Source: Actinomycetota bacterium
GTDB lineage: Bacteria > Actinomycetota > Actinomycetes > Streptosporangiales > Streptosporangiaceae
Assembly: GCA_003140115.1 (NCBI GenBank)
Contig: PLIQ01000227.1
Span: forward strand, 21,123 to 29,539
Direction: 5' to 3'
Length of the DNA stretch: 8,417 bases
In this document: in pieces, positions 64-8,417 of the stretch
Layout: each line of letters begins with the position of its first letter
Numbering within the stretch: position 1 is the first letter of the stretch
Made by a program: the position numbers and the translations under genes
Notes under the pieces: model-generated
The model's input: only the letters and a program-made list of their open reading frames with translations
Database searches by the model: none
What the model was told of the DNA's origin: nothing

Positions 64-1248
64 ATGGCTGCTCCACACTACGTAGCTGGGATCGACTTCA
101 ACCCGGCCGTGCGCCAGGACGCGTTCGACGTCATGGCCCGGCTCGTCGAGCACTACCGCAACAAGTCCACCGACCAGGCGCCGGACCAGTGGCGCGAACC
201 GGTCAACAACTACCGGGACCCGGACGTGTGGCGGCAGGAGATTCAGACCGTCTTCAAGAAGGTGCCGCTGCCGCTGGCCCTGTCCTGCGAGCTGCCCGGG
301 CCGGGCACCTACAAGGCCATCGACGTGGCCGGCACGCCGGTGGTGATCACCCGCGACCCGGGCGGCACCGTCCGGGCCATGATCAACGCCTGCCGGCACC
401 GGGGCGGCGAGCTGGTGCCCGAAGGCATCGGCAAGGCGAACCGGCTGACTTGCCCGTACCACGCGTGGAGCTATGACCTGAAGGGCTGCCTGGTCGCCGT
501 CTACGGCGAGGAGACCTTCGGCGGCGTCGACCGGGACACGATGAGCCTGTTCGCGCTGCCCGCCGCCGAGCGCGCCGGGCTGGTGTTCGTCTCGCTGGAC
601 CCCAAGGCCACCATCGACCTGGACGAGTGGCTGGGCGCCGAGCTGATCACTCTGCTCGAGGCGATGGCGCTGGATAACTGCTTCCACTACTCGACCCGGA
701 CCCTGGCCGGGCCGAACTGGAAGGTGGTCATCGACGGCTACCTGGAGGGCTACCACTTCGCGTCGCTGCACCGCACCACGGTGTTCCGGACCAACCTGTC
801 CAACATGGCCGCCTTCGACGGCTGGGGCCCGCACCAGCGCAATTCGTTCGCGCTGCGGCCGATCGCCCACGCGGTCGACCAGCCGCGCGAGCAGTGGAAC
901 CCGGCCCTGTGCGTCGGCGCGATCTACTGGCTGTTCCCCGGCCTGGCCGTGGCCGGCGGCTGGCGCTCCCAGGTCGTGGTGTCGCTCGTGCTGCCCGGCA
1001 CCACCTGGGACACCTCGCACACCCAGCAGATCTTGGCCCTGCGCCACCAGCCCGCCGACGACGACGAGCGCAAGGCCGCCGAGCACACCCGTGACTGGTT
1101 CCACGACGTGGTCATGGACGAGGACTACGCGACCGGTTACGGCGTCCAGCGCGGCCTGGCGGCGGCCGCGGGCCAGGATTTCGTGTTCGGCCGCAACGAA
1201 CCAGGCGTTCAACACTTCCACCGTGTCCTGAAGGAGATGCTGCCATGA
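64..1248 (+). CDS. Rieske [2Fe-2S] aromatic-ring-hydroxylating-type oxygenase, alpha (catalytic) subunit
   Basis: A 394-residue protein of normal length for a single-chain Rieske non-haem iron oxygenase. The Rieske cluster ligands are C110, H112 (CRHRGG) and C130, H133 (CPYHAW). The catalytic domain has the mononuclear iron motif around 224-236 (DGYLEGYHFASLH) with ligands H231 and H236; E228 sits where naphthalene dioxygenase has its bridging Asp. The third ligand is probably an Asp in 348-354 (DVVMDED). Family members use electrons from a reductase, directly or through a ferredoxin, to hydroxylate, dihydroxylate or demethylate small molecules with O2; no reductase, ferredoxin or beta-subunit gene is visible here. 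ATG at 64 has no clear ribosome binding site but starts a full-length protein 12 bp after the previous stop. Its stop overlaps the SDR start (ATGA). The substrate cannot be read from the sequence; the family call is firm. Confidence 0.95.
   Translation: MAAPHYVAGIDFNPAVRQDAFDVMARLVEHYRNKSTDQAPDQWREPVNNYRDPDVWRQEIQTVFKKVPLPLALSCELPGPGTYKAIDVAGTPVVITRDPGGTVRAMINACRHRGGELVPEGIGKANRLTCPYHAWSYDLKGCLVAVYGEETFGGVDRDTMSLFALPAAERAGLVFVSLDPKATIDLDEWLGAELITLLEAMALDNCFHYSTRTLAGPNWKVVIDGYLEGYHFASLHRTTVFRTNLSNMAAFDGWGPHQRNSFALRPIAHAVDQPREQWNPALCVGAIYWLFPGLAVAGGWRSQVVVSLVLPGTTWDTSHTQQILALRHQPADDDERKAAEHTRDWFHDVVMDEDYATGYGVQRGLAAAAGQDFVFGRNEPGVQHFHRVLKEMLP
1231..1236 (+). promoter_or_regulatory. Ribosome binding site for the SDR start at 1245
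   Basis: AAGGAG ends 8 bases before ATG 1245. It lies inside the last codons of the Rieske gene, so the SDR can be translated by the same or re-initiating ribosomes. Confidence 0.7.
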
Positions 1249-2090
1249 GCGGCGGCGGAGCAACCGACATCGAAGAAGAGGAGCTGGATGTGACCGAGGC
1301 CGGAGCAGCGCCGCTCCTGGACAAGAGGGTCGCCGTGATCACCGGCGGTACCCGCGGCATCGGCCGCGCCATCGCCGAGGCGTTCGCTTCCGCGGGCGCC
1401 GCCGTGGTGCTGGGTGGCAGGTCGCCGGACAAGGGCCAGCAGGCCCTGGCTGAGATGGGCGTCGGCGACCGGGCCAGCTTCGTGCAGTGTGACGTGCGCC
1501 GCCAGGGGGACGTCAACAACCTGGTCGACCAGGCCGCCAAGCGGTACGGCAGCGTGGACATCATGGTCAACAACGCCGGCGGCACCGAGGGGTTCGCGCT
1601 GGTGCACGAGATGACCGACGAGGCGTGGCTGGATGCGCTGGACTTCAACCTGAACGCGGTGTTCTGGGGCACCCGCCGGGCGCTGCGGTACATGCTCGAG
1701 CGCGGCTGGGGCCGGATCATCAACATCTCCTCGGTCGAGGGCAAGCAGGCCAACAAGCCCGCGGTCAGCCACTACATCACCAACAAGCACGGCATCAACG
1801 GCTTTACCAAGGCCGTCGCGTTCGAGTACGGCGCCAAGGGCATCACCTGCAACGCGATCTGCCCCGGCGCGATCGAGACGGACACCATGCGCGAGCTCGG
1901 ACCGCAGGCGGCCGCCGGCGCGGGCATCACCTATCAGCAGTTCATGGACAACTACGCGCAGGAGTCCGCGATCAAGCGGCTGAACACGGTCGAGGAGGTC
2001 GCTGCCATGGCTAGCTTGCTGGCCAGCGAAATCGGCGGCGGCATCACCGGCGCGCTGATCAACGTCGACGGCGGTACCGCGCAGTGGTGA
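1245..2090 (+). CDS. NAD(P)-dependent short-chain dehydrogenase/reductase (classical SDR)
   Basis: A 281-residue Rossmann-fold oxidoreductase, single domain. The cofactor motif TGGTRGIG is at 33-40, D83 follows strand 4 (CDV), NNAG is at 109-112, and the active site is S163 (NISS), Y177 and K181 (YITNK), with an Asn at 135 or 137 (DFNLN) as the fourth catalytic residue. PG at 207-208 and the C-terminal VDGG are also typical. The Ser-Tyr gap is 14 residues, one more than in FabG. The first ~25 residues, including an acidic stretch (DIEEEELD), precede the SDR core; GTG at 1290 is an alternative start with its own good ribosome binding site and would give 266 residues. Placed directly after a Rieske oxygenase, it may dehydrogenate a hydroxylated or cis-diol product, but the sequence resembles general FabG-like SDRs and the substrate is unknown. 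Confidence 0.93.
   Translation: MSGGGATDIEEEELDVTEAGAAPLLDKRVAVITGGTRGIGRAIAEAFASAGAAVVLGGRSPDKGQQALAEMGVGDRASFVQCDVRRQGDVNNLVDQAAKRYGSVDIMVNNAGGTEGFALVHEMTDEAWLDALDFNLNAVFWGTRRALRYMLERGWGRIINISSVEGKQANKPAVSHYITNKHGINGFTKAVAFEYGAKGITCNAICPGAIETDTMRELGPQAAAGAGITYQQFMDNYAQESAIKRLNTVEEVAAMASLLASEIGGGITGALINVDGGTAQW
1279..1283 (+). promoter_or_regulatory. Second ribosome binding site, for an internal SDR start (GTG 1290)
   Basis: AGGAG lies 6 bases before the in-frame GTG at 1290, inside the 5' end of the SDR frame. It is as good as the site before ATG 1245, so either or both starts may be used. The purine run also encodes the acidic EEEE stretch, so it could be coincidental. Confidence 0.4.
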
Positions 2091-3859
2091 ACGCGGCGGT
2101 GCCGCTGCCCGACCGCTGGCTCACCGACACGCCGACCAGCTCGCGTTTCCCGATCTACACCCGGGGCAACGCCGACGAGGTCGGCCCGGAGCCGTACTCG
2201 CCGCTGGGCTGGAGCCTGACCTGGGAGCAAGGTATCGCGCCAGGAACGGCGGACGGCTGGGTCACGCTCGGCGGGTTTACTTCGGAGGAATTCACCTGGC
2301 CGGTGCCGGAAACCTTCGGCAACTGGGGCGGTTACTTCTTCAACCAGGTGTCGCTGGGCCGGGTCTTCGGCGTCCGGGCGCCCGGCGGCAGCCCGGACCT
2401 CATCGATGAGCAGTTCTTCGGGAAGAACCGGTCGGTCCCGCGCTACGTGCCCGATCCTCGCGACGAGTCCCCGGAGCGCAGCGAGGCCATCGGGGCCCGG
2501 TTCGCCGAGATCCTGGCCGCCACCCAGCCTCCGGGCTACCTGACCGACTTCATCGCCCAGGTACAGGCATGGTCGCAGGAGCGCCCGGACCTGCCCGCGC
2601 TGACCGACGCGGAGTTGATCGCATACGGCCGGACCGCGAACTACCGGCAGCGCCCGACCTGGGACCTCTACACCGTGATCACCATCGCCGCCACCGTGGG
2701 CCCCTCCGTGGTGGGCCCGATCGCCGCGTCGCTGGGCTTCCCGAACGCCGCCACCGAGGTGTTCAGCGCGATCGGCGGAGTCGCCAGCGCGGCCACGGCC
2801 GAGCGGGTGTGGCGGCTGTCCCGCCTGGCCCGGGCTTCCAAGCGGGTCGGCGCCGAACTGGACGCGGGGATCGACGGGGCCATCGGTCGGCTGCGTGCGT
2901 CGGAGGATAAGGAGGCCGAGGCGTTCGTCGAGGAGTTCGAGCACCTGCTCGCGGTCGACGGGCACCGCGGGCCGAACGAGTGGGACATCTCCTCCGACAG
3001 CTGGGTGCTGAGCCCGGAGCTGCCGCTCAGCATGATCGACCAGCTGCGGCGCCAGGACGATGACCACTCTCCCGCGTCCCGCGCCGTGGCCCTGACCGCG
3101 CGCCGGGAACAGCTGGTTTCCGAGCTGCTGGCGGCGGCGGCCGGCGATGAGGCCACCCAGGGCGTGCTGGCGTCCGCGCTCCGCTCGGGCACGGTGTTCT
3201 ACCAGGTGCGCGAGAAGGGCAAGGACGCCGCGGTGCGGGCCATGCTCGAGGCCAAGCTGCCGTTCGTTGAGCTGGGCCGCCGGTGGGCCGAACGCGGCGT
3301 CATCGAGCACCCCAAGCACGTCTTTATGCTGCTGGACCGCGAACTGGACGAGATTGCCGCCGCCCCCGAGGGCTGGCGCGAACGCCTGGCCCAGCGCGCC
3401 GCGGACTTCGCTGAGCTGGGCGCCCGCGTCCCGCCCTATGTCGTCGTGCACGGCGAGCCCATACCGCCGCTCTCACGGTGGCCGCTGCGATCCGGCGACG
3501 TCGCGGTGACCAGGGCCGTTCCTGGTGATGAGCTGAAGGGGCTGGGCGTCTCGCCGGGCGTGGCTCGCGGCCGGGCCCGGGTGGTCTCCGGCCTGGCCGA
3601 CATCACCGACCTCGACCCCGGCGACATCATCGTCTGCTCCACGACCGATCCGTCGTGGGTGCCGCTGTTCCTGGTCGCGGGCGGCGTCGTCTGCGACATC
3701 GGCGCACCGTCCAGCCACGCCGCGATCGTCAGCCGCGAGCTCGGAGTGCCGTGCGTCGTATCGGTGTCCCGCGCCCGCGACCGCATCGCCGACGGCACGC
3801 ACGTCGAGATCGACGGGCTCGCCGGGACGGTGCGAATCCTGGAAGGCGCCCCCGGGTGA
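2084..3859 (+). CDS. PEP-utilizing (phosphohistidine swivel) domain protein lacking ATP-grasp, paralogue 1; dikinase/RPH-like phosphotransferase subunit
   Basis: 591 residues. The C-terminal ~110 residues (485-587) form the mobile phosphohistidine domain of PEP synthase/pyruvate phosphate dikinase: KGLGVSPGVARGRARV, then SSHAAIVSRELGVPCVV with the phosphorylatable H545. The central part resembles the substrate-binding region of RPH-like enzymes: YTRGNADEV near 25-33, SPLGW at 39-43, HRGPNEWDI at 294-302, REK at 376-378 and a following helical stretch with ERGVIEHPKHVFML. The N-terminal ATP-grasp domain of full dikinases is absent; the protein begins where that domain would end. In phenylphosphate synthase the same split exists, with ATP binding on another subunit. 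The SDR stop is overlapped: GTG 2084 and GTG 2087 are both possible starts (2087 gives a GTGA overlap), and neither has a strong ribosome binding site. Inferred role: accepts phosphate from a separate ATP-binding partner and transfers it to a small molecule. Confidence 0.85.
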   Translation: MVNAAVPLPDRWLTDTPTSSRFPIYTRGNADEVGPEPYSPLGWSLTWEQGIAPGTADGWVTLGGFTSEEFTWPVPETFGNWGGYFFNQVSLGRVFGVRAPGGSPDLIDEQFFGKNRSVPRYVPDPRDESPERSEAIGARFAEILAATQPPGYLTDFIAQVQAWSQERPDLPALTDAELIAYGRTANYRQRPTWDLYTVITIAATVGPSVVGPIAASLGFPNAATEVFSAIGGVASAATAERVWRLSRLARASKRVGAELDAGIDGAIGRLRASEDKEAEAFVEEFEHLLAVDGHRGPNEWDISSDSWVLSPELPLSMIDQLRRQDDDHSPASRAVALTARREQLVSELLAAAAGDEATQGVLASALRSGTVFYQVREKGKDAAVRAMLEAKLPFVELGRRWAERGVIEHPKHVFMLLDRELDEIAAAPEGWRERLAQRAADFAELGARVPPYVVVHGEPIPPLSRWPLRSGDVAVTRAVPGDELKGLGVSPGVARGRARVVSGLADITDLDPGDIIVCSTTDPSWVPLFLVAGGVVCDIGAPSSHAAIVSRELGVPCVVSVSRARDRIADGTHVEIDGLAGTVRILEGAPG

Positions 3860-3903
3860 GCCCACGGCCGGTGGTGACGCTGCCCGATCGCTGGCTCACC
3901 GAC
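2105..3903 (+). repeat. Direct nucleotide match at the 5' ends of the two tandem paralogues (2105-2128 and 3880-3903)
   Basis: The two 24-base segments encoding LPDRWLTD are identical except for one C/T difference (2113 versus 3888). The positions given span from the first copy to the second. This is the clearest nucleotide trace of the duplication; elsewhere the genes have diverged substantially. Confidence 0.6.
3842..3846 (+). promoter_or_regulatory. Ribosome binding site deciding the start of paralogue 2
   Basis: GAAGG (within GGAAGG) lies 9 bases before GTG 3856. The GTG overlaps the TGA of paralogue 1, and the encoded N-terminus lines up with that of paralogue 1, which supports this start over upstream in-frame codons. 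Confidence 0.6.
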
Positions 3904-5607
3904 TGGCCGCGCAGCCCGCGGATGCCCTTCTACACCCGGGCCAACGCCGGGGAGGTGCTGCCCGATCCGGCCAGCCCGCTCGGCTGGACCCTGGTCTTCG
4001 AGCAGGGCCTGCTGCCCGGGTGGCTGCGCGGGCTGGTCGAGTTCGGCTTCTACCGCGAGGGCGAGCTGCCCATGGACCGCCCGCCCGTCGCGGGGCTGTT
4101 CGGTGGCTACTTCTACATCAACCTCTCGCACTGCCGCGTCCTGGCGATCCGGATGGGGATGACGGTCGAGGCGTTCGACGCGACCCTGCTCGGCAGCGCG
4201 GCGGCCGCGCCGTCGTACCAGCCGCACCCGGACGACCCGTGCGGTGAGTGCTCGGCGAAGATCGCGCAGACGATCGGCGAGATCCTGGCCGCGTCGCAGT
4301 TCCCGCAGATCGACGCCGACACCGAACGCGTCCTCGCCCTGCGGCGCGGCCGCCCGGACCTGGCCGCGCTGTCGGAGGCCGCCCTGGTCGCACACGCCCG
4401 GTCGTTCCTGCCCGAGCTGGACAACGCGTTCGTCCGGCACGACTACTCCACGTTCGGCTCCGCGGTCGGGCCCGCGATGCTCGCCGAGGCCTGCGCCGCG
4501 GCCGGCGAGCCCGCGGCCCTGCTCGACCTCATCTCGGGCTACGGCGAGGTGCCGTCCGCGTCGCCGTCGTGGGGCCTGTGGGAGCTGTCCCGGCTGGCCA
4601 ATGCCTCACCCGAGCTCAGCGCGGTATTCGACCAGGGCGTGGCGGCGGTCTTGGCGGCCCTGCCCTCCCCTGCTCAGCCCGCCGTGGTCAAGTTCGCCGA
4701 GGCTCTCGACAGCTTCCTGGCCGACTTCGGGCAGCGCGGCCCCAACGAGTGGGACATCCGCGCCATCTCCTGGGAGGCGGGCCCGGACCAGGTGCTCGCG
4801 CTGGTCGACAGCATGCGGCACATCCCCGACGAGGATTCGCCGGACGCCCGCCACGCCCGGCTGGAAGCCACCCGCCGGGCCGCCGCCGAGCGCATCCGCG
4901 CCGCCCTGCCCGACGACGCGAGCCGGGTGAGCTTCGACGTCGCCCTGCAGTCCTCGGCCCGGACCATCCCGTTGCGCGAGAAGACCAAGCTGATCGCCGT
5001 CACCACGATCAACGAGGTGCGGCTGGCCCTGCGCGAGCTCGGCCGGCGGGGCGTGGCGGCCGGCTACTACGCGGCGCCCGAAGACGTCATGATGCTGCTG
5101 GAATCCGAGCTCGACGACTACGTCGCGGACCCGGCGCGCTTCGCCCCGGTCATCGCCGAACGGCTGGCCCAGTACCTGGCCCTGTTCGAGATCGAGCCCC
5201 CGTTCATCATCGACGCCGACCCCGCCCCGCTGCCCAGCTGGCCCCGGCGGGCCCGGCCCCGCCCCGAGCCGGCCGCCGCGGGCGAGGTACTGCACGGGAT
5301 CGGCGGCAGCGCCGGGCAGTACCAGGGCCGGGCCCGGGTGGGCATGGACCTGCCCGCGGCGATGGCCCTGGAGCCGGGCGAGATCCTGGTCGCACCGCTC
5401 ACCGACGCCGCCTGGACGCCGCTGTTCCTGGTGGCGGGCGCGGTCGTGGTCGACGTCGGCGCGCTGAACAGCCACGCCGTGGTGGTGTCCCGCGAACTCG
5501 GGATTCCCTGCGTGCTCTCGCTGGCGGACGCCACTGCGCGGCTGCGGGACGGCATGGTGCTCGCGGTGGACGGCACGGCGGGCACCGTCACCGTGGTTTC
5601 CGGGTAA
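3856..5607 (+). CDS. PEP-utilizing (phosphohistidine swivel) domain protein lacking ATP-grasp, paralogue 2
   Basis: 583 residues from GTG 3856, which overlaps the previous stop (GTGA). The frame stays open upstream to 3655, but that extension overlaps paralogue 1's swivel domain, is Arg-rich, and is a shadow. The protein is collinear with paralogue 1: LPDRWLTD at 9-16, YTRANAGEV at 26-34, SPLGW at 40-44, RGPNEWDI at 294-301, REK at 374-376, and the C-terminal swivel domain with NSHAVVVSRELGIPCV and the phosphorylatable H540. The ATP-grasp domain is again missing. Differences include a Pro/Arg-rich linker (about 455-475) before the swivel domain and NSH in place of SSH. The two proteins may form a heteromer or have diverged in substrate. 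It is the last gene of the operon; the stop is TAA 5605-5607. Family membership is clear, the reaction is inferred, and no ATP-binding partner is seen in the window. Confidence 0.85.
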   Translation: MSPRPVVTLPDRWLTDWPRSPRMPFYTRANAGEVLPDPASPLGWTLVFEQGLLPGWLRGLVEFGFYREGELPMDRPPVAGLFGGYFYINLSHCRVLAIRMGMTVEAFDATLLGSAAAAPSYQPHPDDPCGECSAKIAQTIGEILAASQFPQIDADTERVLALRRGRPDLAALSEAALVAHARSFLPELDNAFVRHDYSTFGSAVGPAMLAEACAAAGEPAALLDLISGYGEVPSASPSWGLWELSRLANASPELSAVFDQGVAAVLAALPSPAQPAVVKFAEALDSFLADFGQRGPNEWDIRAISWEAGPDQVLALVDSMRHIPDEDSPDARHARLEATRRAAAERIRAALPDDASRVSFDVALQSSARTIPLREKTKLIAVTTINEVRLALRELGRRGVAAGYYAAPEDVMMLLESELDDYVADPARFAPVIAERLAQYLALFEIEPPFIIDADPAPLPSWPRRARPRPEPAAAGEVLHGIGGSAGQYQGRARVGMDLPAAMALEPGEILVAPLTDAAWTPLFLVAGAVVVDVGALNSHAVVVSRELGIPCVLSLADATARLRDGMVLAVDGTAGTVTVVSG

Positions 5608-5617: not shown

Positions 5618-6115
5618 TTACCGTTCGGGCGGGGGAGCCAGGTCCTTGCGGCCGGTCAGCACGAACCACCAGATCAGGCCGCCGACATCGGCCGGGGCGG
5701 CCGCGGTACCGGGGATCAGGTGCAGCACCACCAGGGACAGGGCGGCGGCGACGGTGGCGCGGATGAGCAGGCGCAGCGGACGGCCGCGGCGGATCCGCGC
5801 CGGAACCCAGGCTAGGTTGAGGAGCGGCTGCCACGGCGGGACCGGCGGTGGCCAGGCGTCGGCGGGCACGGCCAGCAGCGGTGAGGTGTCTGGTTCGCCA
5901 TCCTCGGTGAGGTCGGCGTAGGCCTCGCTGCGGGCCCAGGGGGTGCGCAGCTGGGCATAGGCGGCGGACGCGGCCGTATACCGGGCCAGGTCGCCGCCGT
6001 CGGGCCGGTCGGGGTGGGTGGCGGCGGCGATCGCCCGCCAGGCGGAACGGACCTGCTCGTCGCTCAGGTCGGGCCGGGCCGGCAGGCCGAGCGCGTCAAA
6101 TGGGTCAGGGTTCAT
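5618..6115 (-). CDS. Membrane-anchored J-domain (DnaJ-like) protein
   Basis: 165 residues. The N-terminal J domain (about 4-66) starts DPFDALGL and has the diagnostic HPD at 34-36 (ATHPDRPDGGD), followed by the helix with YTAASAAYAQL; HPD is what stimulates DnaK ATPase in this family. There is no Gly/Phe-rich region or zinc-finger domain. A Pro-rich linker (about 88-96) leads to two likely membrane segments (about 115-133 and 141-154) and a short charged tail. ATG 6115 is chosen because GGGAG (6125-6121 on the minus strand) precedes it by 5 bases and the J domain begins at once; ATG 6136 would add seven residues without a good ribosome binding site. The gene overlaps the translocase end by 11 bp, so it is probably co-translated with it. 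Inferred role: recruiting DnaK to the membrane translocase or a transfer complex. Confidence 0.85.
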   Translation of the reverse strand: MNPDPFDALGLPARPDLSDEQVRSAWRAIAAATHPDRPDGGDLARYTAASAAYAQLRTPWARSEAYADLTEDGEPDTSPLLAVPADAWPPPVPPWQPLLNLAWVPARIRRGRPLRLLIRATVAAALSLVVLHLIPGTAAAPADVGGLIWWFVLTGRKDLAPPPER

Positions 6116-7982
6116 CACGGCTCCCGAAGACGTCATCGAGACTGGCCGGTCCCTGCGGCCAGGCCGGGGGTGCGGGGTCGGGTTCGCGGCGCGGCTTGGG
6201 CACCTGGACCAGTGGTTCGGCGGCGGGTGCGGGGAGCAGCGTGAGGGGCGACGCCTTGGGCCGGGCGACCTGCACGAACGTCGCGGCGCCGCGATGGATG
6301 TAGCAGGCCTGGCCCACCTTCAGGTGACGGATGAGATCGGGGTCGGCGACCGAGGTCCGCTGGATACGGGTCGTGCCCTCATCGCCCCAGAGGTTCCCGA
6401 CGAGCTTGTGCGCGGTTTCCAGCACCCGCCGGTTCCCGGCCAGCACGGTCAGCGGCTCGGGGTAGGGAGCCTGCAGGACGAACACCCCGCCGTCAGCGGT
6501 GGCCGCGATCCGGTAGCGCTCATCGTCATCCCGGCCCAGGCCCTGCCAGGTCTGCGCGGAGACCTGGACCCCGATGCCCAGCGACCGGCCGCGTTCGTAC
6601 AGGTTGGAGATGGGTACCCGCCGGGCGACGGCGGAGTAGTCGTCGGCAGCCAGCAGCATCACCCGCGGCTCGCCGTCCAGGCTGGTAGCGGCGCAGGCGG
6701 CCAGCTCGGTCAGCGCCATGGCCTGCGCCTCGGCCACCGAGGGTTCGCGGGTGCCCTCCAGAATGCAGTACCAGGCGTCGGCCTCGGCCAGGGTGCCGGG
6801 CCCGTCCAGCGCGGGACCGAGCCGGCCGAGCAGGGTCGCGTACCGGAGCTGGATGTCGGGCAGGTGCCTGGCCGCGGCCCGGGCCTGGGCCAGCTCCGCC
6901 GGGTGGCGGCCGTCGCTCCAGGCGTGCTGCAGCCATTTCGCCTCGAGCCGGTCCAGGAACCCGGCGGTGTTCACCGGCGGGCCGCAGGGGGCCAGGACGG
7001 CCATGGTCAGGACCGCTTGCAGGATGTCGGCGTAGTAGGCCGCGGCGCCGGTTCCGGTGTCGATCATCTGGTAGAGCAGCACGGCCAGGTCCGAGGCGGG
7101 CAGGTCCCACAGGCACAGGCGAGCCTCGTCGGGCCAGATCGCGACCCGGCGGGCACCGGCGCCGTAGAGCAGGCGGCGGGTCCGGTCGGCCTTGGATCGC
7201 GCGTCCCGGCCGCCCTTGCAGTCCAGCACGATCAGCAGCGGCCGGTTACCCCGTCCGGCCTGGGCGGCCTGGAGGGCGGCGGTGAACCAGCCCGCCCACA
7301 GCCGAATCATCAGGTTGGTCTTGCCCGATCCAGTCGCGCCGACCACGACCATGTGCCGGGCGCACGCCTCCGCGGGCAGAGCGAACACGGGCCGCCAGCG
7401 GTGGCCGATCGCGCGGATGGTCGCGCCGACCGGGATCCGGCCGCCTCTGGCCAGCAGCGGGACGGCGCCAGGCGCCCTGTTCAGGCCCTGGGCCGCGCGG
7501 ACCTGCCGTTTCCACTGGCGGGCGTCGAAGCTGATCGGCGCGGATGCCGTCCAGCCGCCGATCCCGGCGGTCACGGCATAGATCCGCCACCCCCACGCCA
7601 GCCCGGCCAGCGCCAGTCCGGCCGGGACCGCGACCGGGAGGAGCAGGGCGAACGTGTGGGCCAGGCCCGCCGCGGTCAGGTGGTCGAAGCCGCGGGCCCA
7701 CGCCCGGCCCGGGGTCAGGGCGGCCGACCGCCAGCCAGGCGCGCGGACCTCCACGATGATCAGCCAGCCCGCCGTGACCGGCAGCGTCCACGCGGCGGTG
7801 CGGTACAGGCGGACCGGGGGCCAGCCGCGCAGCCACGCCGCGAGATACCCGATCACGGCCACCAGCATCACCGGCCACGCCGCGACCAGCACGGCGGCCA
7901 GCAGCAGCCCTCCGGTGAACTTGACCGTCTTGCGGAGCAGCCACAAGAACATGGTCAGCTTCAGCCACGACCACACGCTCAT
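6105..7982 (-). CDS. FtsK/TraB-like DNA translocase (membrane-anchored conjugation/segregation ATPase)
   Basis: 625 residues from ATG 7982. About four N-terminal membrane segments are visible (roughly 24-36, 37-50, 64-79 and 108-130). The RecA-like motor has Walker A GATGSGKT at 215-222, the strand-plus-KGG motif LLIVLDCKGG at 249-258 seen in coupling-protein-type ATPases, and a Walker B-like strand VMLLAADDYSAV at 441-452 with D447-D448 where DE is usual. The segment that follows (NLYERGRSLGIGVQVSAQTWQGL) matches the FtsK/TraB pattern after Walker B. A Pro-rich tail ends SLDDVFGSRDEP. Actinobacterial members pump double-stranded DNA during mycelial conjugation or plasmid/ICE transfer. The start overlaps the upstream stop (ATGA) with GGAG 8 bases before it; the frame stays open upstream to 8363, but that part is an Arg/Gly-rich shadow of the preceding gene. 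No FtsK gamma (KOPS-reading) domain is evident. Confidence 0.93.
   Translation of the reverse strand: MSVWSWLKLTMFLWLLRKTVKFTGGLLLAAVLVAAWPVMLVAVIGYLAAWLRGWPPVRLYRTAAWTLPVTAGWLIIVEVRAPGWRSAALTPGRAWARGFDHLTAAGLAHTFALLLPVAVPAGLALAGLAWGWRIYAVTAGIGGWTASAPISFDARQWKRQVRAAQGLNRAPGAVPLLARGGRIPVGATIRAIGHRWRPVFALPAEACARHMVVVGATGSGKTNLMIRLWAGWFTAALQAAQAGRGNRPLLIVLDCKGGRDARSKADRTRRLLYGAGARRVAIWPDEARLCLWDLPASDLAVLLYQMIDTGTGAAAYYADILQAVLTMAVLAPCGPPVNTAGFLDRLEAKWLQHAWSDGRHPAELAQARAAARHLPDIQLRYATLLGRLGPALDGPGTLAEADAWYCILEGTREPSVAEAQAMALTELAACAATSLDGEPRVMLLAADDYSAVARRVPISNLYERGRSLGIGVQVSAQTWQGLGRDDDERYRIAATADGGVFVLQAPYPEPLTVLAGNRRVLETAHKLVGNLWGDEGTTRIQRTSVADPDLIRHLKVGQACYIHRGAATFVQVARPKASPLTLLPAPAAEPLVQVPKPRREPDPAPPAWPQGPASLDDVFGSRDEP
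6121..6125 (-). promoter_or_regulatory. Ribosome binding site deciding the J-domain gene start
   Basis: Minus-strand GGGAG sits 5 bases upstream of ATG 6115, inside the end of the translocase gene. The alternative ATG 6136 has no comparable site. Confidence 0.55.
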
Positions 7983-8417
7983 CGCGACGGCTCCAGGGTG
8001 AACGCGGACCGCGGCAGATCCCGGACCACCACCCGCGCCTGTTCCCAGGGCGGAAGGGCCGCGGTGGTCCTGGTCACCACCGTCCGGGCGGCCGGGGCGG
8101 TCAGGTAGATCACCTGTGCGTACTGCATCGCGGTCAGCAGCTCGGTGATGATCCGCGCGGTGCGGGCCGCCGCCTTGGGGGTGAGCTCGACCTCGATCGC
8201 CCAGACCTGCCCGGCGTAGGGGGTGCCCGCGACGCTCGGCCAGTGAATCTCCGCATCCGGGACGTGCCCGCGACGCCCGGCGGCGGGCACGTCGGCGCGC
8301 AGCCGCCGCTCGCAGTGCCACCATGGCTGCCCGGCCGCCCAGGCCGGGCTGGCCGCGATCCACAACCGGGCCGCCAGCACGGCGCGGATGTGGGTCAGGC
8401 GGCCCAGCGCCGGGCGG
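7979..8417 (-). CDS. Replication-relaxation family protein, C-terminal part (runs off the right edge)
   Basis: The frame is open from the window edge to TGA at 7981-7979 and shows about 145 C-terminal residues. GTG 8380 is in frame, but the sequence before it (RPALGRLTHIRA) continues naturally into the protein, so the gene very likely begins outside the window. The recognisable core is WWHCERRLRA, GHVPDAEIHWP, then WAIEVELTPKAAARTARIITELL, YAQVIYLTAP and VVVRDLP, the conserved C-terminal pattern of actinobacterial replication-relaxation proteins. The family name comes from plasmid replication/relaxation contexts and its biochemical role is poorly defined; the unseen N-terminal half usually holds a winged-helix DNA-binding region. 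Its stop overlaps the translocase start, the usual order in actinobacterial mobile elements. A PD...ExE...K pattern in the visible part could be a nuclease-like core. Confidence 0.83.
   Translation of the reverse strand, partial: RPALGRLTHIRAVLAARLWIAASPAWAAGQPWWHCERRLRADVPAAGRRGHVPDAEIHWPSVAGTPYAGQVWAIEVELTPKAAARTARIITELLTAMQYAQVIYLTAPAARTVVTRTTAALPPWEQARVVVRDLPRSAFTLEPSR
7991..7994 (-). promoter_or_regulatory. Ribosome binding site for the translocase start
   Basis: Minus-strand GGAG lies 8 bases upstream of ATG 7982, within the last codons of the preceding gene. With the 4-bp ATGA overlap this fixes the start and suggests translational coupling. Confidence 0.6.

Follow-up and report, generated by a model that had tools for sequence, protein, structure and literature searches.

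Gene organization of the window

The window analyzed here, i.e., the whole 8417-base stretch of contig PLIQ01000227.1 from an Actinomycetota bacterium (GC content 72.5%), carries on its + strand an operon of four tightly packed genes. They encode a Rieske oxygenase, a short-chain dehydrogenase/reductase (SDR), and two related proteins, named here H subunits A and B, which look like a rifampicin phosphotransferase (RPH) minus its ATP-grasp domain. The Rieske, SDR, and A genes overlap in series, and A and B are spaced by 11 bases. The features are the following:

64..1248, + strand: Rieske ring-hydroxylating oxygenase, alpha-type, 394 amino acids (aa); PF00848 (E 2e-29) and PF00355 (E 3e-17)
1245..2090, + strand: SDR oxidoreductase, 281 aa; PF00106 (E 4e-59); 4-base overlap with the Rieske gene
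2084..3859, + strand: H subunit A, consisting of an RPH-like substrate-binding region and a swivel, without ATP-grasp; GTG start, 591 aa
3614..3826, + strand: PF00391 swivel (mobile) domain of A, residues 511-581 (Pfam E 5e-21)
3716..3718, + strand: His545 codon of A, motif CDIGAPSSHAAIVSREL; invariant His in the alignment
3871..5607, + strand: H subunit B, architecture as A, an old paralogue of A; GTG start, 578 aa
5371..5583, + strand: PF00391 swivel domain of B, residues 501-571 (Pfam E 9e-20)
5473..5475, + strand: His535 codon of B, motif VDVGALNSHAVVVSREL

The start codon of A is uncertain; many homologues start about eight residues later. The Rieske protein scores far under the cut-offs of the NCBIfam models listed for it.

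Domain architecture of A and B

A and B align over 583 columns with 39% identity (E 4e-104). PF00391 is the sole domain found in either protein with our local copy of Pfam, where no PPDK_N domain was detected up to E 1; the precomputed domains of the protein database add PF27448, a model outside that copy, for homologues of A and B. Both proteins have an intact His at the site of phosphorylation (A-H545 and B-H535), which ends the motifs CDIGAPSSH in A and VDVGALNSH in B. Across an alignment of 116 homologue rows, H545 and the pair G540-A541 are invariant. A previous interpretation made from the letters of this DNA alone (the sequence-only reading) had described two collinear RPH-like proteins with a swivel His and no ATP-grasp, and the Pfam and profile matches confirm this description. 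Its position for the His of A also stands, while the His of B, numbered there as H540, becomes H535 here (the difference would be explained by a start codon lying five codons further upstream).

The similarity to RPH was found by several methods. The phmmer program aligned residues 286-587 of A with residues 573-867 of RPH 5fbs (E 1e-25), a profile comparison with one RPH gave a probability of 99.8% for A 213-587, and a profile search against the PDB sequences matched RPH over profile positions 239-577 (E 5e-42). A and RPH are 33% identical over 312 aa, with their substrate-binding and swivel regions aligned. For the N-terminal part of A the likeness comes solely from a MAFFT alignment, which sets residues 24-43 of A opposite residues ~332-351 of RPH (numbering counted by eye); the RIF-binding domain of Listeria RPH spans residues 327-754 (PMC4844700). 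This placement near the start of the RIF-binding domain suggests that A and B resemble an RPH without ATP-grasp, and agrees with the previous claim that both begin where that domain would end.

The best NCBIfam models for A and B are RedH, a phosphoenolpyruvate (PEP)-synthase-like model, PigC, and RPH, all of them far under their cut-offs and with matches that begin mostly at residue ~210-290. RedH is the top match of both proteins (138 bits for A and 143.5 for B), PigC yields 104 and 134.6 bits (the cut-offs for these two models are 1350 and 1300), and RPH 127.1 and 120.7 against a cut-off of 999. In RPH a single chain comprises the ATP-grasp, the substrate-binding, and the swivel domain, a layout that A and B do not have.

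At E 1e-3 there are at least 1810 homologues of A among 7998 scored candidates and at least 1346 of B among 7995, so A and B are not chance open reading frames (ORFs). Many such genes are currently labelled in the databases as "rifampicin phosphotransferase" or "pyruvate,water dikinase". The set of H genes comprises 120 matches with at least 350 aligned residues, some genes being included twice, and 109 of them are full-length. The strict His motif is missed by 26 of these 109, but 24 of the 26 visibly keep the SH; the other two are the gene of locus L035, with an unread base before the His, and that of L079, whose displayed tail ends short of the His.

Relationship with the phenolic dikinases

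A two-component subfamily of small-molecule dikinases that act on phenols with ATP was described in 2025. HpeH functions with a separate ATP-grasp protein, HpeI, loses its activity by the H581Q change, and was reported to be present in part as a dimer (PMC12167813); the Hpe pathway is the subject of PMC9618137. A and B have the layout of the PpsA/CreH/HpeH subunits, i.e., a substrate-binding region and a C-terminal swivel, with an essential His in the known systems, while the ATP-grasp resides on another chain in HpeHI, CreHI, and PpsAB. The setting of these systems is aromatic catabolism (PMC12167813 and the Azoarcus PpsABC-Ppc-like cluster L142).

A and B were compared with the Azoarcus plasmid cluster L142, of the phenylphosphate synthase-carboxylase type, and with the Rhodococcus Cre-like clusters L143 and L144, which are called CreH-like by their cluster content, CreH and HpeH themselves being outside the comparison. 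The H subunits of L142-L144, L092, and L094 show a mutual identity of 43-53% (95% for the two Rhodococcus ones). The identity of A and B to the PpsA-like and CreH-like comparators is ~27-30% over part of the chain and ~42% over the ~105-aa swivel, and they do not reach the ~45% full-length identity expected of PpsA/CreH/HpeH members. Moreover, the motif T/SXXGGXXXH given for the HpeH-type family before the catalytic His (PMC12167813) is altered in A and B, which have GA in place of GG. The wider H family also varies at this point, with GG in the B2 protein of L021, GS in the B3 protein of L008, and GL in L109. The low partial identity and the GA change argue that A and B, although they resemble this family in their working, do not belong to it, and their assignment to PpsA/CreH was thus discarded on the identity values. 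The idea of split phosphohistidine subunits put forward by the sequence-only reading holds for the RPH/phenylphosphate-synthase architecture and for the Rieske/SDR setting, but not for membership of the phenylphosphate-synthase family.

No adjacent ATP-grasp subunit of the PpsB/CreI type is present within the window, whose edge falls just upstream of the Rieske gene. In the loci covered by the PpsB-like marker I_L094 (L111-L130), this marker was the best match of no place. Separate operons encoding a PpsB-like ATP-grasp protein, a PpsA-like H protein, and a ~419-aa protein (L091-L095) were observed in genomes that also carry H genes of the A/B type.

A and B are old paralogues

A genome scan led by A, retaining the best 80 of 124 relatives, yielded 75 loci, many of them on short contigs. 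In a tree of 76 proteins, A falls in a group of 34 rows (support 99/96) and B in another of 30 rows (98/91), each spanning several lineages. This topology makes A and B old paralogues from two clades and rejects a recent tandem duplication, so that the "duplicated swivel subunit" of the sequence-only reading does not hold in the sense of a recent event. Two H genes occur in 27 of the 75 loci, a count from a sample biased by the A-led query and the short contigs, and every pair joins an A-clade gene with a B2 or a B3 gene (12 A-B2 and 15 A-B3). The pair is directly adjacent, as in the window, in L021, L022, and L029 (gap of 59-67 bases).

Eleven of the 75 loci contain a unit made up of Rieske, SDR, and B genes (L049, L050, L052-L057, L059, L060, and L070; in L055 the Rieske gene comes after B), and thus A looks like an addition between the SDR and B genes in the window. 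The order in the freshwater actinobacterial loci is A, histidine phosphatase, Rieske, B3, in some of them old yellow enzyme-like and alcohol dehydrogenase genes, a gene for a 207-aa protein, and c29, a gene described below. A monosaccharide-type ABC importer is encoded near several relatives (NCBIfam scores under cut-off); the importer and the oxygenase neighbours do not settle the substrate.

Truncated PPDK genes are linked to the H genes of relatives

We have surveyed 24 genomes with H genes; 19 are those of selected loci from the genome scan, and five come from searches in the families of genomes G010 and G009. In 16 of the 24, a half-PPDK is encoded on the H contig within about 20 kb. Ten have a PEP-half, which is either of the c29 type (G001-G004, G009, G010, G011, and G386) or a fusion of swivel, PEP barrel, and 207-aa domain on one chain from which the ATP-grasp domain is gone (G005 and G006; L127:7778-10066 and L128:10050-12362, ~14 kb from the H genes). 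The other six (G013, G014, G229, G260, G263, and G280) have an ATP-half, i.e., ATP-grasp plus swivel without the barrel, fused to the 207-aa domain in G013 and G014. An ATP-half is also linked on a plasmid of R. pyridinivorans and, beside a more distant H gene, on a Diaphorobacter plasmid. Among the 64 tree rows that include A and B, ten genomes have a PEP-half as the linked candidate donor and two an ATP-half (G013 and G014).

The c29 protein is an 862-aa PPDK homologue that matches PPDK along most of its length. All 11 c29-type proteins inspected (including those of L119, L121, and L146) lack the ATP-grasp motifs GGKG, GMMDT, QGEDVV, and QTR and keep the swivel His and the PEP barrel signature; the copies of L015 and L005 end at the locus edge. 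The protein of L102 scores 668 with TIGR01828, below the cut-off of 843. A tblastn match had made c29 a candidate for the ATP-grasp partner, which was rejected when Pfam and alignment revealed the PEP barrel and a degenerate ATP-grasp. Regarding the ATP-halves, a regular-expression check missed some ATP-grasp motifs in the proteins of L111 and L115, and the short PPDK of L111, the sole ATP-half protein scored, passes NF004531 (557.5 against 456). These ATP-halves are similar to VadK (Rv1127c) and to the NF004531 short PPDKs in being ATP-half PPDKs with a swivel, but differ from VadK in their linkage to H genes of the A/B type. VadK autophosphorylates its His and has the operon partner Rv1126c (PMC13400623).

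A stand-alone ATP-grasp subunit of the PEP-synthase type is encoded in G001, G002, G006, G016, and G017, beside a different, PpsA-like H gene. The sequence-only reading had predicted an ATP-grasp gene close to A and B and named its absence from conserved neighbourhoods as the finding that would speak against it. It proved half right: the observation holds, and its interpretation is partly supported. A candidate donor gene, derived from PPDK, does recur in the conserved neighbourhoods of relatives, but it is not a stand-alone PEP-synthase-type subunit beside an A/B-type H gene, and with the motifs gone from all c29-type proteins inspected the unfavourable outcome is half realized. The barrel gene C3 of G016 was tested as lying on the same contig as its H gene, and this was not borne out.

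The 207-aa family

The 207-aa protein or domain is encoded on the H contig in 18 of the 24 genomes, i.e., the 16 with a half-PPDK plus G015 and G019. The gap between the H gene and the 207-family gene ranges from 70 bases to 22 kb in the 16 half-PPDK genomes. In G015 and G019 the 207-aa gene is divergent to the H gene and 130-160 bases apart (L122:6627-9131 and L123:7391-9895), and no PPDK-type gene was seen beside it in these two loci. In G229 and G260 the domain lies within an AMP-ligase-like protein, and a reading of the sequences at L111:11874-14069 and L112:14119-16410, beside or near H genes, places it at the C-terminus of such a protein. The matching gene of G008, G016, G017, and G018 adjoins a gene for a 295-296-aa protein with no H gene in the region taken, and was taken for a paralogue. 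The N-terminus of the 207-aa protein is weakly similar to DNA-binding-type domains, under cut-off. This protein may correspond to Rv1126c, the operon partner of VadK.

Distribution of H genes and half-PPDKs in genome families

In the family of G010, H genes occur in five of 341 genomes, and an order-level search of G010 gave the same five. These genomes hold five of the top six scores of the 207-family search, each copy on the H contig. Since G010 and G280 contributed rows to the 207-family query alignment, the other three H genomes are the ones to consider; all three are placed among the first four of the 180 that remain, with a chance of ~4e-6 under random ranking and with relatedness ignored. 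The sixth top score belongs to G344, where the short PPDK and the 207-family gene lie ~1.8 kb apart (L129). The 207 family was rejected as a specific marker of H genomes, and only linked, high-scoring copies are informative.

In the family of G009 (24 genomes), H genes occur in G009 and G386 only, and the same two genomes are the only ones with a c29-type protein (>1100 bits). Among the rest, 18 match c29 at the level of an ordinary PPDK (482-531 bits), G385 with 143 bits, and three not at all.

G012 is a metagenome-assembled genome (MAG) labelled Microthrix, with related records that are marine by title. Its family (48 genomes) has H genes in 47 genomes, PPDK_N in 10, and the PEP barrel in 43. 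The underlying numbers of H matches enter some genes as two separate pieces. The barrel ORF is 426-625 aa long in 34 of the 37 genomes that are positive for H and negative for PPDK_N, and 890-958 aa in eight PPDK_N-positive ones. No ATP-grasp motif was found in the 12 of the 34 short-barrel ORFs inspected (L131, L147-L153, and L155-L158) nor in the flanking DNA taken for eleven of them (L147-L153 and L155-L158), and ten of the 12 have the SHAA His pattern (not L153 and L156). Similar barrel ORFs outside this family list are present in G015 (L135, ended by the contig edge), G017 (L133), and G019 (L132); G017 also has a stand-alone ATP-grasp gene.

Proposed function and alternatives

We tentatively propose, at somewhat less than an even chance, that A and B are subunits of a split phosphotransferase for small molecules that receives its phosphate in trans from a half-PPDK, with PEP as the source in the lineages nearest to the window. 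A and B would be two different substrate-binding and swivel subunits. The RPH-like region of each would bind a hydroxylated intermediate of the Rieske/SDR pathway, and its swivel His would carry phosphate to the bound hydroxyl, by analogy with HpeHI. Because A and B have no ATP-grasp of their own, a PPDK-derived half enzyme encoded elsewhere in the cluster, usually accompanied by the ~207-aa accessory domain, would phosphorylate the His in trans; the linkage of half-PPDKs to H genes makes a PPDK-derived donor likely, and distinguishes these proteins from HpeHI, CreHI, and PpsAB. Where the half enzyme retains the barrel and its own swivel without the ATP-grasp motifs, as in the nearest lineages, the phosphate would come from PEP. 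The dimer reported for part of HpeH makes an A:B hetero-pair a possibility. There is a precedent for PEP-driven phosphorylation by a barrel-swivel protein, since Enzyme I alone phosphorylates rifampicin in vitro, undetected in vivo (PMC13099321). The c29 protein shares the PEP barrel and the phosphohistidine swivel with Enzyme I of the phosphotransferase system; its sequence, however, resembles that of PPDK (42% over 700 aa), and none of the H proteins is an HPr.

Several observations weigh against this proposal. The half-PPDK partner in the genome of the window itself is deduced from relatives; eight of the 24 H genomes have no linked half-PPDK (G007, G008, G012, and G015-G019), and support is only 83/89 for the branch point that joins A and B with the genomes carrying mostly PEP-halves. 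Half-PPDKs retain their own swivel His, making another acceptor or a regulatory role conceivable, and several H genomes encode a canonical PPDK or a PpsB-like subunit, which are possible donors in trans. The 207 family is common (182 of the 341 genomes of the G010 family), and in G344 a short PPDK lies close to the 207-family gene while no H gene turned up in the genome at E 1e-60 or in the region. In the family of G009, the c29 query was taken from G009 itself, so the independent coincidence of c29 and H amounts to one of 23 other genomes, a chance of 1/23. In that of G012, G431 has the same kind of PEP-barrel ORF (L154) without H, and the barrel gene of G012 lies on a different contig from its H genes. 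Genome completeness is unstated, so that absences may be inflated.

Among the alternatives, A and B might be charged by an ATP-grasp subunit outside the window, either an ATP-half PPDK or a PpsB-like protein, converting ATP to AMP as in PpsAB, CreHI, and HpeHI. The linked ATP-halves of six of the 24 genomes and of the R. pyridinivorans and Diaphorobacter plasmids (the latter with the more distant H gene) fit such a classical dikinase, and so do the stand-alone ATP-grasp subunits of G001, G002, G006, G016, and G017. However, the partner linked in the lineages nearest to A and B has lost the ATP-grasp motifs, and no PPDK_N was detected in G386 or in the 37 H-positive genomes of the G012 family noted above, which leaves this explanation rather unlikely, if a serious one. 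A purely regulatory relay, in which the half-PPDK and the H proteins shuttle phosphate among histidines and report the PEP or energy status without a small-molecule product, appears improbable. It would be VadK-like, VadK being a PPDK-derived His autokinase that is said to work via protein partners (PMC13400623), and it is favoured by the weak DNA-binding-type similarity of the 207-aa partner and by the pair of short PPDK and 207-family genes without a nearby H in G344, but A and B still have the RPH-like region, and their genes are clustered with those of oxygenases and dehydrogenases.

Slightly more improbable still is that phosphorylation primes the substrate for a condensation, as in PigC and RedH, leaving no stable phospho-ester. 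RedH is the best NCBIfam match of A and B and PigC ranks high, but these scores lie far below the cut-offs and concern the C-terminal part only; moreover, a gene stands beside A in L004, L005, L008, L009, and L013 that Pfam identifies in L008 as a histidine phosphatase, suggesting a phospho-intermediate. Inactivation of rifamycin-type antibiotics, which the similarity to RPH could evoke, is hardly credible given the RPH model scores, the oxygenase/SDR neighbourhood, and the presence of H in nearly every genome of the G012 family.

If the split phosphotransferase charged by half-PPDKs is correct, and partly fed by PEP, it would provide a new energy source for small-molecule kinases, a role for many of the genes labelled as noted above, and an acceptor hypothesis for truncated PPDKs. 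An unlikely extension is a whole family of PEP-fuelled split kinases for small molecules, in which half-PPDKs devoid of ATP-grasp would pass phosphate from PEP, from swivel to swivel or from barrel to swivel, onto an A+B hetero-pair of substrate-specific H subunits, with one to four H genes per genome relying on a single PEP-half in the family of G012. Such a family would be the cytosolic counterpart, for substrates other than sugars, of the sugar phosphotransferase system. What is new here is the likely half-PPDK partner and the ancient pairing of A and B; among the matches listed by a literature search, no paper on the H family of A and B or on half-PPDKs as its donor was found, which is not proof of absence.

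Other features of the window and of the related loci

Convergent to the operon, the - strand of the window (5618-8416) encodes a small DnaJ-domain-like protein and an FtsK/TraD-like ATPase, both with weak matches, and a fragment with weak similarity to MobC replication-relaxation proteins. The ATPase matched one plasmid record only, a comparison of the window with plasmid DNA for near-identity gave a single match of 39 bases, and no relatives were found in the viral contigs searched. This module possibly represents the terminal part of a plasmid or integrative element.

The neighbours of H-like genes repeatedly include genes for DUF7064/DUF7065-like proteins and for APH-type kinases (L076, L078, L079, L049, and L050), in Rhodococcus, Diaphorobacter, and mycobacterial plasmids as well as in freshwater loci. 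Several MAG contigs (L005, L006, L009, L052, L057, L059, and others) are titled Bifidobacterium breve, but their H proteins group in the tree with those of other freshwater actinobacteria, and these records are probably mislabelled.

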